From Porphyromonas macacae DSM 20710 = JCM 13914 (GTDB taxonomy: Bacteria; Bacteroidota; Bacteroidia; Bacteroidales; Porphyromonadaceae): 64,000 bases of DNA. The first letter of the stretch is position 1; every line of letters begins with the position of its first letter. Position numbers and translations under genes: made by a program. The stretch lies in NCBI RefSeq assembly GCF_000379945.1, contig NZ_KB904124.1, positions 548,976-612,975 of the forward strand, given 5' to 3'. Under the pieces are notes generated by a model. That model saw only the letters and a program-made list of their open reading frames with translations, did no database searches and was not told the origin of the DNA. Below are positions 2,542 through 58,589 of this stretch, piece by piece.

Positions 2542-2676
2542 TCAATAAATTTATACAAGATCTATGTTGATGCTATATAGATGAGAGCAAACGAATATAA
2601 GAAGTCGCAAGCCGGACTCTGTTAAATATAGGATATACGAGAGTAAACGATAATGTTTTAGATATTTTATAAGTCG

Positions 2677-3273
2677 ATGAAAAAAATTCTGATTATACTG
2701 GCAATTTTGCTACCGACGACAGTTTTTTCTCAGCGTTTGGCTTTGAAAAACAACTTGGCCTATGATGCCATATTAACCCCGAATATTTCGTTGGAAATGT
2801 CTCTTGGAAGAAAATGGACATTAGACACTCAAATTGGAGCCAATTTTTTCTTTTATACAAAAGATCCAGGTAGCTCTAATTACAAAAGCACCAAATGGAG
2901 CCATTGGCTTGTGCAACCTGAGTTGCGTTATTGGACTTGTGACGTTTTTAACGGTTGGTTCTTCGGATTGCACGCCCATGGAGGACAAATGAATGTAGGA
3001 GGTATAGACATCCCATTTATTTTGGATCATAAGAAAAGCGAAATGGAAAATCACCGGTATGAAGGATATTTCTATGGCGGTGGTATCAGTATTGGTTATC
3101 AGTGGGTCGTATCGGATCGATTCAATATAGAAGCCTCTATCGGTGGCGGTTATGCACGTATCCATTATGACAAGTATAAATGTACGACTTGTGGAGAAAA
3201 GCTAAATGATGGCAAAGCAAATTATTTGGGACCAACAAAAGCTACATTGTCATTGATATACTTCCTTAAATAA
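2677..3273 (+). CDS. DUF3575 family fimbria-associated outer-membrane protein
   Basis: A 198-residue protein with an N-terminal signal peptide (MKKILIILAILLPTTVFSQ) and alternating hydrophobic, aromatic-rich segments ending in a typical C-terminal strand (ATLSLIYFLK), as expected for a small outer-membrane beta barrel. The segments NNLAYDAILTPN and WSHWLVQPELRYWTCDVFNG are typical of the DUF3575 family, which in Bacteroidales often precedes Mfa/Fim fimbrial genes. No enzymatic motif is seen. It is followed at 116 nt by the DUF3868/OmpA-like gene, and the pair likely supports fimbrial assembly or anchoring; that role is inferred from context. A decayed paralogue with the same landmarks lies at 16901. 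Confidence 0.8.
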   Translation: MKKILIILAILLPTTVFSQRLALKNNLAYDAILTPNISLEMSLGRKWTLDTQIGANFFFYTKDPGSSNYKSTKWSHWLVQPELRYWTCDVFNGWFFGLHAHGGQMNVGGIDIPFILDHKKSEMENHRYEGYFYGGGISIGYQWVVSDRFNIEASIGGGYARIHYDKYKCTTCGEKLNDGKANYLGPTKATLSLIYFLK

Positions 3274-3388: not shown

Positions 3389-4840
3389 ATGAAAGTTACA
3401 ATTTACAAGTCAATAGCATTTGCTGTGGTTTTAGCTATTAGTGTCTTTGCCGGACAAGCTCAGGAGCTACAGAACCAATATCAAGATATTAGAATGGAGC
3501 GTAGTGCTGATGGAAAGATGTTTAGTGTGCATATGTCCATAAAGCCCTCCAAAATGATTCGTTCTCAAGAAATAATGTATGTTTTCCCTTCTTTGGTGTC
3601 TAAAGACAGTGTTTACCGTACGGAATTGAAGCCTATAGCAATAGCGGGGAATAAGCGTTTTCGCGTATTGAAACGCCATAAAAGGCTTGGGAATGAATCG
3701 TCTCTGAATCGACTTCCTCAAGTAGAGCCTGTCAAAGTCTCTGATATACATAAAACCGGTGATATTATAATTAGTCAACATATACCTTTTGAACGTTGGA
3801 TGGCACAGAGTCATCTAAAAGTCCGTGAAGAAATTTTTGGTTGTGCCAATTGTCGAAAAGTTGAACTGTCTTCGACAGTTGATAAGGCAAACATTCCTTT
3901 GTTTTCTTCTCAAGATTATAAATACAGCTATATAGAGCCGGCTGCAGTTGCTGTCAAGCGTTATGAAGAATCTTTTGAAAGTAAAGTGAATTTTGTTGTT
4001 GCCAGATATGATTTGCAAACCAACTTTGAAAATAATGCTCATGAACTTAGTCGTTTAGATAACTTTGTCATTGAGGCATTAAAGATGAAAGGGACCACAT
4101 TGGATCAGGTTTTTGTGACGGGCTATGCTTCACCTGAGGGAGACTTTAATTCAAATCGTATACTCTCTGAGCGTCGTGCAAATACCTTGGCTGTATATGT
4201 CAAGAGTAAACACCCTGGCGTAAAGAAGGCTCCCGCTTTTCGCGTGAACAGTGAGGGGGAAGATTGGGCTGGTTTACGCAAAGCTGTTGTTGAATCTGAT
4301 ATAGACTATGCATCCGAGGTTGTAGCCATCATAGATAAATATAAAACAGATAAAGAGCGTGAAGCCGACATAAAAAAACTTGATAATGGTCGTGTTTATA
4401 TTCAATTGCTGAAAGATTTCTACCCTCCTTTACGCCGTACAACTTTCCGGATGGGTTATGCTGTGCGACCCTATACAATCGAAGAAATCCCTGAGATCTT
4501 CGATACAAAACCAGGGTTGTTAAGTCAGAATGAAATGTATCGTTTGGCAAAATTTAACCTTAGTAAAGGTAAAGATGTACTAGGTGTATATGAAGCTGCT
4601 TATAAACAATTTCCGTCGGATGTGATCGCCGCATTGAATTATGCCAATGCTTTGTTGCAATACAAACAAGATGCAGCCAAAGCTTTGAATGTGCTTCAAC
4701 CTCACATGGCAGACGTGCGTGCTCTATTGCCGATGGCAATCGCTTATCACATGCAGGGAGATGAAATCCAAGCAGAGAAGATTCTGAAAACTGCTGCTGA
4801 AAAAGGAGATAAAGACGCAAAAAGAATTCTAAAAATGTAA
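3389..4840 (+). CDS. DUF3868 / OmpA-like fimbria-associated protein with TPR tail
   Basis: This 483-residue exported protein has a signal peptide (cleavage likely after GQAQ, about residue 25), an N-terminal region of the DUF3868 type (about 30-170), and an OmpA-like segment (about 200-310) containing VFVTGYASPEG and SERRANTLAVYV, the usual peptidoglycan-binding helix-strand pattern. A helical repeat tail follows (about 385-483, NYANALLQYK, AIAYHMQGDEIQAEKIL), which is TPR-like. The DUF3575-DUF3868 pair upstream of Mfa1-type fimbrillins is a recurrent Bacteroidales arrangement, so a role in fitting the fimbrial system into the envelope is likely but inferred. Only the extreme 3' end of a second copy survives at 17195-17362. 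Confidence 0.8.
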   Translation: MKVTIYKSIAFAVVLAISVFAGQAQELQNQYQDIRMERSADGKMFSVHMSIKPSKMIRSQEIMYVFPSLVSKDSVYRTELKPIAIAGNKRFRVLKRHKRLGNESSLNRLPQVEPVKVSDIHKTGDIIISQHIPFERWMAQSHLKVREEIFGCANCRKVELSSTVDKANIPLFSSQDYKYSYIEPAAVAVKRYEESFESKVNFVVARYDLQTNFENNAHELSRLDNFVIEALKMKGTTLDQVFVTGYASPEGDFNSNRILSERRANTLAVYVKSKHPGVKKAPAFRVNSEGEDWAGLRKAVVESDIDYASEVVAIIDKYKTDKEREADIKKLDNGRVYIQLLKDFYPPLRRTTFRMGYAVRPYTIEEIPEIFDTKPGLLSQNEMYRLAKFNLSKGKDVLGVYEAAYKQFPSDVIAALNYANALLQYKQDAAKALNVLQPHMADVRALLPMAIAYHMQGDEIQAEKILKTAAEKGDKDAKRILKM

Positions 4841-14401: not shown

Positions 14402-14559
14402 TGACGTGAATTTGATGTAAAGACCGTGTGTTGAAAGGATTGTAGTTTTCCTTTTGCGTAAACCGGTTCCTTTTTGGGGCGCGGTATTCTGCTTCACATT
14501 ACTTTCCTGTGCTTGTATCGAACTCCATATTAACATGTTCGGTATGTGCGCTAAGCACC

Positions 14560-14850
14560 CCAATACCTTTCCATATTTCTATGGCAGGTTTTCAAAAATG
14601 CTCTCCCCCGAACCGTATGTACATGTTTCCATGTATACAGTTCTCCATTAAAGAGTCATTCATATCTTTCCTATGTGAGCTTCAGGTGACAGTTCCGACG
14701 TAATTGCAATAGCTTTTTTATTCCGTGCAATCATCATTTTTCTAAAGAAACCTTTGCTATCCAAATCTTTTAATTTTCGGACATGGTGAATTCCCAGATT
14801 TTCTGTTTCTCCACATTTCTCACATATCTGTGCTTTTAACTTAATCTATT
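14560..14850 (-). mobile_element. Group II intron 3' remnant (maturase HNH end, domains V and VI)
   Basis: On the minus strand, codons from about 14846 down to the stop at 14660-14662 read ICEKCGETENLGIHHVRKLK, DLDSKG, then RKMMIARNKKAIAI and AHIGKI, matching the zinc/HNH C-terminus of group II intron reverse transcriptase-maturases; the second CxxC pair is lost. Downstream, the minus-strand complement of 14610-14643 is exactly 34 nt and folds like domain V: a GAACTG/CGGTTC basal helix, GAAA tetraloop and distal stem. The usual catalytic AGC triad reads AAC. A GAAA-capped hairpin with unpaired A residues at about 14562-14590 fits domain VI. The 5' part of the intron is absent, so the element is dead. 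Confidence 0.8.
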
Positions 14851-46193: not shown

Positions 46194-46271
46194 TTTGAAT
46201 GCGTAAAATTGAAAAAACAGATTTCGGGTATTTGCTCGGATAATCTGCTCTTTTGCGTGATTACAGGAACT

Positions 46272-46316
46272 TAAACGGGGTTGTGCCAAAAATGAATTTT
46301 GACACAGCCCCGTTTA
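46272..46316. repeat. Dispersed palindrome, copy 1 (bidirectional terminator)
   Basis: TAAACGGGGTTGTGCCAAAA and its inverse TTTTGACACAGCCCCGTTTA frame a 5-nt loop. It stands between the convergent ABC and aminotransferase genes and can terminate both. Its reverse complement is nearly identical to copy 2 at 55484, also 45 nt long. Confidence 0.85.
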
Positions 46317-55075: not shown

Positions 55076-55480
55076 GGGGCTGACTGGCTTTGACAGCGTG
55101 CCGAGGTGATTTGTAAGCATGTAGTGCATCGGTAATTGGCACTTAAATCTCAGTTATCGAACTTTTTAGTTGGCGAAAATAATTACGCTCTCGCTGCGTA
55201 ACCGAAGTATAGTAGGTTAATCGCTTTATTGCTGCACAGGTGTGGCAACGAGACATCATCCGAGAAGCTCCCGACCCGTAGCGTCTCGACCCGGTGGTGT
55301 AACGGAAATTCGGGTATCGCTCTGCTCAGCCTTCGGAGCCGGGTTAAATGAAAGAAGGATAAGGATATGGGAAGGTAGTTTCGGCCCAACCCGAATCTCG
55401 AAAATCAAAGCGAAAATAAACATGTAGAAAGCAGGTTGTTTCCGCGTTTGGACGAGGGTTCAATTCCCTCCAGCTCCACC
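55076..55480 (+). ncRNA. ssrA: tmRNA (transfer-messenger RNA)
   Basis: The RNA begins GGGGCTGACTGGCTTTGACA and ends in a T-arm GGTTCAATTCC plus CAGCTCC-A-CC, so 5' GGGGCTG pairs with 3' CAGCTCC to make the 7-bp acceptor stem. The CCA tail is only encoded as CC, so it must be completed enzymatically. The tag frame at 55172-55201 reads GENNYALAA-stop, a Bacteroidales-type degradation tag. tmRNA with SmpB rescues stalled ribosomes. The gene's 3' end is a repeat boundary of the element 55488-57369, yet the insertion leaves the RNA intact. Confidence 0.97.
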
Positions 55481-55487
55481 GATTAAA
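55464..55487 (+). repeat. attL-like direct repeat (ssrA 3' end)
   Basis: TTCCCTCCAGCTCCACCGAT followed by TAAA, 24 nt covering the T-arm, acceptor strand and first 7 nt downstream of ssrA. The identical 24 nt recur at 57346-57369. Confidence 0.9.
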
Positions 55488-55528
55488 CGGGGCTGTGTCA
55501 AAATTGGATTTTGGCACAGCCCCGTTTA
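55484..55528. repeat. Dispersed palindrome, copy 2
   Basis: TAAACGGGGCTGTGTCAAAA and TTTTGGCACAGCCCCGTTTA with a 5-nt loop; nearly the reverse complement of copy 1 at 46272. It overlaps the last 4 nt of the attL-like repeat and can now act as the ssrA terminator. TTTGCGCATGATGA follows at 55555, as it does after copy 3. Confidence 0.85.
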
Positions 55529-55907
55529 CGTGTGTCAGTCTTTGTGCCCTGTACTTTGCGCATGATGACACTTTCTTTTCCTTTGATTGTTTTGTCAAAA
55601 AGCTTCGAGAAATCATCTACAGTGCAAAAATTCAATTATATTTACTTTTATAAAGCAGTGTTTTATGAATGTATATCTTATTGGTTCCCAAATATTACAA
55701 ATATTACAAGATATAAATAATTCGCTGCTTTTTCAGTTATAACACACACGATATTAATCATGTTAACGGTTGACCGGGTGGTAAATTATTGACACCTTCT
55801 TACGTCGAACTGACGTGAAAATGGAAAAGGACAGGTATTATTTAACTATATGACTCTTCTTTCTTTCCGGATAGAAAAGAAGGAGAATCTTAAAAACAAC
55901 ATGAACC
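55529..55907. other. Non-coding left part of the ssrA element
   Basis: No gene is supported. The stretch is AT-rich, has the 14-mer TTTGCGCATGATGA at 55555-55568 shared with 58546-58559, and presumably contains the promoter of the following lipoprotein gene, but no convincing consensus promoter was found. Confidence 0.5.
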
Positions 55908-57245
55908 ATGAATAAGGCAATTATTTTAGGATTATCTCTCATCTTGATGATGCTCTCCTCTTGTGTAGAGCCCAAACCCGGTATTCTTGAGGTATCACCA
56001 AACAAACTTTCCTTTGGTGGCACGGAGGAGAGTCTATCCGTTACCGTTAAGTGTTCCTCGAATGATTGGACATGGGAGAGCGATTTCCCTAAGTGGATCT
56101 CTATTCAAAGAAAGGATGATGGGGCAGTAACAATAACGGCTCGGCCTAACCCGGAAAGTCATGTGAGAGAGGGGCGAATTACCTTTATCTGCGAAGACCT
56201 CAAGAGTATTGTCAGCATAGAGCAAGCCCCCAAGCCTGTAGAGTATTACATTCAAGTCGTCGATCAATTGGAGCTGGATGATGTCCATGCTCCTGTAACT
56301 ATCGAGGTTAAGACCAATGCTCCTGCCTGGGAGATAGTAAGCAAGCCTCAATGGCTGGAGGTTTCCCAAAAAGATCAACAACTAATCATAACAGCCGGTC
56401 CGAATACCGGATCCAACCGTAGAGAAGGACTCGTTACACTGGAAGCAGAGGGCAAGCAGGCCCTCTTAAAGGTTACTCAAGCAGAGAAGGCTTACGTAAG
56501 CATAAGCAAAGAATTATCGATATTTCACTATCTGGGAGGAGTGCAGACGATCTCTTTCAAGAGTAATCGCAAAGATATTGTGATAGATTACTCTGACTTC
56601 TCTGCTCATTTCACTTCAGAAGTTATTGGTGACAATCAGCTTAGGATTTCAGCTCCAAGAAACATTCAAAATAAGGAGATCAATAGGTCTATCTCCTTTA
56701 TCTACAAGGGGCGCACTCTACTCGATATTAAGGTCAATCAAGAGAAAAGCAACATCGAAGCAGATCAGAGAGCCTACTTGGTGGAGTTCTTTAAAATGAC
56801 GAATGGAGAAAACTGGGTCAATAACACCAATTGGCTTTCTGACCGACCTCTATCCGAATGGTATGGCATCCGGATGGGAGATGAGGGCTATGGGGTCTAC
56901 AGTATTATTTTGAAAGACAATAATCTCTCAGGTCGTATTCCTAAGGGGTTTGGTATACTCGTCAGTGCCAACCTCATCAAGCTCCAAGGCAACGCTTTAG
57001 AGGGTGAGCTCCCCGGTGAATTGACCAACTTAAAAGAGGTTGTCATTTTAGACCTCTCCAATAATAATTTTACGGGGAGTATCCCTGCCGGGCTTTGCGG
57101 AGATTTCCCTAAAAGAATATCGCTTGATCTGAGGGGAAACAGGCTAAGCGGAACGGTACCGACTTGTTTTATTGAAAACGTCAATAAATATAAGTTCTGC
57201 CCTCAACAAGAAGGTTATAAATTCGACAATTATCATTGCAACTGA
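55908..57245 (+). CDS. BACON-domain and leucine-rich-repeat surface lipoprotein
   Basis: This 445-residue protein has a lipoprotein signal (lipobox LSSC, Cys19). Two BACON-type beta domains follow: about 25-105 (LEVSPNKLSFGGTEESLSVT, WISIQRKDDGAVTITARPN, FICEDLKSIVSIEQA) and about 110-190 (WLEVSQKDQQLIITAGPNTG, LLKVTQAE). A third beta region spans about 195-280. The C-terminus is a plant/slime-mould-like LRR block with a cap (VEFFKMTNGENWVNNTNWLS, LSEWYGI) and repeats NNLSGRIPKGF, NALEGELPGEL, NNFTGSIPAGL, NRLSGTVPT. BACON domains are linked to carbohydrate or mucin contact and LRRs to protein binding, so a surface adhesin-like role is plausible. It is the only cargo of the ssrA element. Confidence 0.88.
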   Translation: MNKAIILGLSLILMMLSSCVEPKPGILEVSPNKLSFGGTEESLSVTVKCSSNDWTWESDFPKWISIQRKDDGAVTITARPNPESHVREGRITFICEDLKSIVSIEQAPKPVEYYIQVVDQLELDDVHAPVTIEVKTNAPAWEIVSKPQWLEVSQKDQQLIITAGPNTGSNRREGLVTLEAEGKQALLKVTQAEKAYVSISKELSIFHYLGGVQTISFKSNRKDIVIDYSDFSAHFTSEVIGDNQLRISAPRNIQNKEINRSISFIYKGRTLLDIKVNQEKSNIEADQRAYLVEFFKMTNGENWVNNTNWLSDRPLSEWYGIRMGDEGYGVYSIILKDNNLSGRIPKGFGILVSANLIKLQGNALEGELPGELTNLKEVVILDLSNNNFTGSIPAGLCGDFPKRISLDLRGNRLSGTVPTCFIENVNKYKFCPQQEGYKFDNYHCN

Positions 57246-57345
57246 ATACACTTCGTATTGGATTTGAAATAAACTCTTTAGATTGTGGAGGAGGAATATT
57301 GAGGTCTGAAACCAAGCAGCAATATTTTCAGATAGATCTTTAGAT

Positions 57346-57369
57346 TTCCCTCCAGCTCCACCGATTAAA
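57346..57369 (+). repeat. attR-like direct repeat
   Basis: An exact 24-nt copy of the ssrA 3' end and flank (TTCCCTCCAGCTCCACCGAT plus TAAA), with no tmRNA body before it. Confidence 0.9.
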
Positions 57370-57408
57370 GGCGCAAACCGCTATCATGACGGTTTGCGCC
57401 CTTTTTCG
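57370..57408 (+). terminator. Terminator, probably the original ssrA terminator
   Basis: GGCGCAAACCG and CGGTTTGCGCC form an 11-bp perfect stem with an 8-nt loop, followed by CTTTTTC. It lies immediately after the attR-like repeat, just where the ssrA terminator would be without the insertion. It may also serve the opposite gene ending at 57444. Confidence 0.85.
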
Positions 57409-57443
57409 ATTACCGGATAAGTAGTTTTAATACTAAGACAAGA

Positions 57444-58401: not shown

Positions 58402-58442
58402 AAGGGGGCTGTGTTAAAAATCATTTTTGGCACAGCCCCCTT
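58402..58442. repeat. Dispersed palindrome, copy 3
   Basis: AAGGGGGCTGTGTTAAAAAT and ATTTTTGGCACAGCCCCCTT form a near-perfect palindrome related to copies 1 and 2. TTTGCGCATGATGA follows at 58546-58559. The palindrome lies 26 nt upstream of the start of the TPR/DUF6624 gene and downstream of the M56 protease gene, for which it may be a terminator. Confidence 0.8.
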
Positions 58443-58589
58443 TCAGGTGCATCGGAATATGTAAAGTACAAGGCGCTGAGGCTGAGAATCAAGGGAGCGT
58501 ACCGAAGTACGTGAACAAAGCCCAATGTTACAAGCAATGCAGTAATTTGCGCATGATGATACACCGTCTTGATTTTTGAACTTTTTGCT

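Follow-up and report, generated by a model that had tools for sequence, protein, structure and literature searches.

A probable decayed genomic island behind ssrA in Porphyromonas macacae

Introduction

Genomic islands at ssrA, the gene for transfer-messenger RNA (tmRNA), that carry repeats of its 3' end are well documented (PMC3146451; PMC12595487), and transfer of one of them, the Pseudomonas island I55, has been demonstrated (PMC12595487). Integrative and conjugative elements (ICEs) and integrative and mobilizable elements (IMEs) that have decayed whilst keeping both attachment (att) sites, attL and attR, are described as cis-mobilizable elements, or CIMEs (PMC5704250). Here we describe a segment of 1.88 kb behind ssrA of Porphyromonas macacae DSM 20710 = JCM 13914, within a window of 64,000 nucleotides (NZ_KB904124.1, positions 548,976 to 612,975 of the forward strand) on contig C1 of a 2.21-Mb draft genome of 31 contigs. 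Coordinates are those of the window unless another contig or locus is named, and genomes, contigs and loci bear our working labels (G, C and L). The original prediction, made from the sequence alone, took the segment for a satellite element or the minimal residue of an island, the second of which is the better half of that reading. We consider the segment to be a decayed ssrA island in which attL and attR survive but the integrase is gone, a CIME-like residue, with a probability of about 0.72; on this reading it is an island relic of an ordinary, known kind. In the open-licence literature that we covered, in part as titles and the beginnings of abstracts, there was no ssrA island of Porphyromonas, a statement about that material and not about print overall.

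Results

The ssrA gene (55076-55480, plus strand) is intact, as predicted, according to both tmRNA gene prediction, which gives the tag GENNYALAA, and Rfam, in which the tmRNA match scores 135.2 bits and ends at 55481. Its 3' end is duplicated in an exact direct repeat of 24 bp. The proximal, attL-like copy (55464-55487, plus strand) starts within the T-loop of the tRNA-like domain, takes in the last 17 nt of ssrA and ends 7 nt beyond the gene, a position like that seen in ssrA islands of Dehalococcoides (PMC3146451) and tmRNA islands of Pseudomonas (PMC12595487), whilst the distal, attR-like copy lies at 57346-57369 on the same strand, a spacing of 1882 bp which confirms the duplication around 1.88 kb that had been claimed. 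Nowhere else in the window do 16 bp or more recur exactly at spacings of 100-5000 bp; when the window was resampled 20 times by a Markov model, the longest repeats measured 13-16 bp. With up to 3 mismatches allowed, the 22-bp core of the repeat has exactly two copies in the draft assembly and no third. Two hallmarks of an island are therefore present: the near border has a whole target gene, and the far border has a second copy of the 3' end of that gene. We infer that the two copies are att sites.

The locus was compared with 25 other members of the genus, with one genome per species. ssrA scored over the Rfam cut-off in 23 of these (G007 gave no match and G012 weak ones), and one copy of the gene was used per genome. 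No downstream repeat of the ssrA 3' end was found in any of the 22 species with at least 5.2 kb available (5.2-10.9 kb searched), nor in the 561 bp downstream of ssrA in G019; the search covered exact copies of at least 12 bp or copies with up to 5 mismatches in 17 relatives, and exact copies of at least 10 bp in 6 further ones, where the longest found was 11 bp. That all relatives should carry the gene and both repeats, which would speak against an insertion, does not hold across species (0/22 have the repeat). A second tmRNA match in G015 (L056) was left out of the repeat search; contig C15 of that genome (L038, L056) holds two such matches, both above the cut-off at 126.2 and 87 bits, and a second ssrA is unusual. 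Matches of the segment itself in the 25 genomes, judged in many of them from the best 12 candidates, were partial and confined to its hairpin and insertion sequence (IS) relic parts, with no DNA counterpart of its gene part, and no second copy of the element was seen in the genus.

Directly behind the distal repeat, where the original prediction had placed it, lies a GC-rich hairpin (57370-57406, plus strand) with an 11-bp stem (57370-57380 and 57390-57400) and a T run (57402-57406); the folding energy of 57363-57410 is -23.6 kcal/mol (z -6.1). Folds of the relatives, assessed by eye, showed a strong hairpin that starts no more than about 16 nt behind ssrA in some 15 of the 23 (16 if a weaker stem in G008 is included), and ssrA joined directly to the distal hairpin would give this usual layout. 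As ssrA is so often followed closely by a strong hairpin in the relatives, the distal hairpin fits an old ssrA terminator, and it is probably the original one, displaced 1.88 kb downstream. Its position and the genus-typical layout agree with the predicted displacement of the native terminator.

On the proximal side a palindrome (55484-55528) begins 4 nt behind the tmRNA. Its 21-nt arms (55484-55504 and 55508-55528) are 95% complementary around a 3-nt loop, and the stretch 55484-55540 has a folding energy of -33.5 kcal/mol (z -7.5). The original prediction had regarded this palindrome as inserted; the hairpin is there, but it is not particular to the element, as a 16-nt piece of its arm has 119 matches across the genome at up to 2 mismatches (59 forward, 60 reverse), a count in which one hairpin may figure twice and IS tips are included. 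The repeat was also matched in seven other genomes of the genus (G001, G004, G009, G010, G019, G023 and G024), and in the tail of the palindrome (55529-55573) positions 55535-55570 match the flank of another hairpin copy (C13:47557-47592). We inspected 20 sites, chosen non-randomly from the list of arm matches, with genes approximated as open reading frames (ORFs) of at least 70 aa. The hairpin pattern recognised 19 of them, the palindrome at L088 being dropped, and each of the 19 adjoins at least one gene 3' end: 7 are flanked by 3' ends on both sides and 9 by one 5' and one 3' end, 3 have one ORF-less side, and none has 5' ends on both sides. Members of the family stand behind a tRNA-His gene at L087 (hairpin 2588-2637, tRNA 2643-2718, minus strand) and a tRNA-Gly gene (L104), and a similar hairpin follows ssrA of G023. 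In terminator comparisons with 23 relatives, uncorrected for the 23 tests, the palindrome exceeded shuffles against G023 (0/300) and weakly against G003 (p 0.02) and G022 (p 0.05), where the shuffles were mononucleotide ones that keep base composition only, so that one hairpin can exceed them against another for that reason. Within the window, further family hairpins were noted at 46269-46315, flanked by the 3' ends of two convergent genes, an ABC transporter gene on the plus strand and another gene on the minus strand, and at 58402-58443, between two minus-strand genes.

The same arm also forms the tip of insertion sequences. All 11 contig ends that were read (L108-L118) enter, over 130-284 bp, one of two IS ends which start with the palindrome arm, and the peptides they encode score 2.2e-6 (C-terminal end) and 0.013 (N-terminal end) against the IS1182 transposase model, both below the curated cut-off, as expected of fragments. 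At L118 the IS1182-family tip abuts sequence like that found beside other hairpin copies, as if the IS had inserted into a hairpin. IS1272, of the IS1182 family, is reported to target terminator hairpins (PMC4923244), and the IS1182-family tips of this genome resemble such elements in sharing the palindrome arm, whereas behind ssrA the hairpin stands alone, and we saw nothing of an IS1182 transposase in the segment. Because the family adjoins gene 3' ends, tRNA genes and IS1182-family tips, we take the palindrome for a terminator-like repeat of the genome rather than the mark of this island. The stability of the hairpin and the location of its family make it likely that ssrA transcription now ends there, although the T run is absent, and we regard the palindrome as the probable present terminator of the gene.

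Beyond the tail of the palindrome lies a relic of an IS982-family, ISPg3-like element (55574-55816, minus strand), which consists of the start of a broken transposase frame and the upstream end of the IS, the rest being absent. The relic is 68-73% identical to IS ends in G041, G024, G019 and G022; its terminal repeat TCGAACTGACGT (55805-55816) is intact, whilst the transposase frame is both broken and cut off. This repeat equals the right terminal inverted repeat given for ISPg3 in PMC4596501, which places ISPg3 in IS5; the transposase copy of G041 scores best as IS982 (NCBIfam, 1.5e-84), and alignment with the IS ends of G041, G024 and G022 shows the relic to share both the transposase start and the terminal repeat, on which we base its assignment to IS982. 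An IS relic within the segment fits decay.

As predicted, the segment carries a single lipoprotein gene, its one long ORF (55908-57245, plus strand), which is intact and encodes a predicted lipoprotein of 445 aa with a lipobox-like start (SSC, identified by eye) and matches to the Pfam families BACON, BACON_2 and LRR_1. The best relative in the genus, in G022, is 34% identical over residues 7-444, and the P. macacae genome itself holds a relative split over two frames on contig C28 (L083 7933-9323) together with weaker matches elsewhere. ARAGORN found no tmRNA gene near relatives of this cargo gene at nine loci in named genomes. On a contig of an Alistipes metagenome-assembled genome (L277), a tRNA-Pro gene (4684-4759) lies about 240 bp before a leucine-rich repeat (LRR) match to the cargo protein. 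Some 100 bp ahead of the distal repeat are without a recognised feature.

A six-frame search of the genome with the tyrosine recombinase family PF00589 gave seven matches, none of them in the segment, and the serine recombinase family PF07508 had no match in the genome. No recombinase was thus found in the segment, in line with the original claim, and for want of an integrase we file it as a residue and not as a complete island. With direct repeats kept as putative attL and attR and with no match to either recombinase family, it also has the features of a CIME, as far as these two families go for integration and transfer genes; the 445-aa ORF, a BACON/LRR protein, was the sole ORF of the segment searched against Pfam. 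Since the site occurs nowhere in the assembly beyond its two copies here, no resident element there uses it. One of the genome's tyrosine recombinase genes, at G000:C27:21647-22141, lies downstream of a tRNA-Phe gene (L259 8074-8147) and is a candidate second island, and in the window itself an Rfam group II intron match just exceeds the cut-off (14544-14645, minus strand; 40.6 against 40 bits).

Searches for mobile relatives were equally negative. A 21-bp version of the site had no match in viral contigs, which likewise held no relative of the cargo protein; phage records gave two short LRR matches to it only, and the segment had no plasmid match, in collections that may omit records of this genome or of very near ones. 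A 16-bp pattern of the ssrA 3' end matched too widely in viral contigs to be of use. Neither phage-derived genes nor a helper phage, by which a phage satellite would be known, were apparent in the form of viral relatives of the cargo or viral matches of the site. On these grounds, and for want of another site copy in the assembly, an active satellite, the other half of the original prediction, is unsupported.

Discussion

The duplication of the ssrA 3' end next to a whole gene, the absence of the repeat in the other species searched and the genus-typical layout of the putative empty site argue for integration followed by decay. We infer that site-specific recombination placed an island at the 3' end of ssrA, where its own att copy would have restored the end of the gene whilst the original 3' end and its terminator hairpin moved 1.88 kb downstream. 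During decay an IS982-family copy would have entered and then been truncated, and the integrase and other genes would have been lost, until attL, the hairpin repeat, the IS fragment, one lipoprotein gene and attR remained; transcription of ssrA would most likely stop at the palindrome today. The minimal island residue of the original prediction is supported in this respect by the duplicated gene end, the missing recombinase and the position of the distal hairpin. If correct, this marks ssrA as a probable site for islands in one species of the genus, and shows how an IS-rich genome can erode an island to a single surface-protein gene. A hairpin family which is shared with IS tips and stands behind the present ssrA and some tRNA genes also suggests that a displaced terminator may be replaced harmlessly.

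Several observations weigh against a decayed island. The composition of the cargo gene is ordinary (GC content 43.8%, against a mean of 42.1% and a standard deviation of 4.4 for 37 ORFs), two of its relatives (in G022 and in P. macacae itself) have no tRNA or tmRNA gene in the surrounding 17-18 kb, and the six-frame PF00589 search detected no integrase remnant. The terminators of the relatives are mostly unrelated in sequence and share position, and the distal hairpin exceeded the shuffles described above only against G022 (0/300) and G004 (p 0.013), again in 23 uncorrected tests. Neither hairpin is listed by a simple terminator scan: the loop of the distal one measures 9 where the scan allows at most 8, and the proximal palindrome is not followed by a T run. 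Finally, 12 proteins encoded around ssrA were unmatched in the ssrA regions of 17 relatives (1e-8), so that synteny gives no proof that ssrA and the downstream side were formerly neighbours; the downstream DUF6624 gene has matches in 3 of the 25 other genomes, all of them weak or distant.

The setting of the palindrome invites an account in which it is the native ssrA terminator, the 24-bp copy and the GC hairpin having come with incoming or rearranged downstream DNA and the lipoprotein gene being an older neighbour of ssrA. All 19 recognised hairpins of the family have a gene 3' end beside them, tRNA-His and tRNA-Gly have one too, and ssrA of G023 has a similar hairpin with no repeat found in 8.9 kb downstream. 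This account nevertheless leaves the exact copying of 24 bp at the ssrA 3' end unexplained, among the other 22 species it finds only the weak, uncorrected similarities of G003 (p 0.02) and G022 (p 0.05), and it faces a gene part without DNA counterpart in the 25 other genomes; we consider it unlikely. A repeat that arose from IS-driven or illegitimate rearrangement rather than through an integrase would suit a genome with many IS tips and hairpin repeats, an IS982-family relic between the two copies and the report that some IS1182-family elements target terminator hairpins (PMC4923244). We hold it to be the least probable of the readings weighed here, given that IS1272 is reported in the same paper to make no target duplication, that no IS end was seen at the distal repeat and that the duplicated sequence is just the 3' end of ssrA, a usual att position (PMC3146451; PMC12595487).

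The segment might, on the other hand, be a small non-autonomous element that is still moved in trans, with a foreign recombinase acting on the two repeats and the palindrome keeping ssrA terminated. Identity of the repeats over all 24 bp, an intact cargo gene and seven tyrosine recombinase matches in the genome are what such an element would lead one to expect; a genus in which no second copy was seen, an assembly in which a third site is missing even when 3 mismatches are allowed, viral contigs with neither a match of the 21-bp site nor a relative of the cargo, phage records with just two short LRR matches, and a lack of plasmid matches are not, and we judge this improbable. Less probable still is its bolder form, a minimal mobile cassette of 1.9 kb, made up of a surface-protein gene, two att sites and its own hairpin terminator, that is moved by passing integrases; were it true, the ready-made terminator would make landing in ssrA free of cost to the host.

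As a decayed island, the segment resembles a CIME (PMC5704250) in its att-like repeats, in the lack of a detected integration or transfer gene and in the presence of a cargo gene, whereas it differs in measuring only 1.88 kb, in lying at ssrA and in having no tandem partner element that we could see. No complete element related to it was found, and the term CIME-like is applied by likeness, both as to an origin from an ICE or IME and as to mobilization. In the Pseudomonas islands I23, I44 and I55 there are intY, alpA and genes with a putative role in phage defence (PMC12595487), whereas here there is one lipoprotein gene and no integrase; they are alike in their integration directly behind tmRNA and in their short direct repeats, of 14 bp in Pseudomonas. 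In sixteen of the Dehalococcoides islands, serine recombinases form part of an integration module next to attL (PMC3146451); the present segment lacks such a module, and the repeat there is of 20 bp compared with 24 bp here. The Dehalococcoides islands and the segment nevertheless share the same plan, in that they lie downstream of ssrA and are bounded by the gene on one side and by a repeat of its 3' end on the other (PMC3146451).
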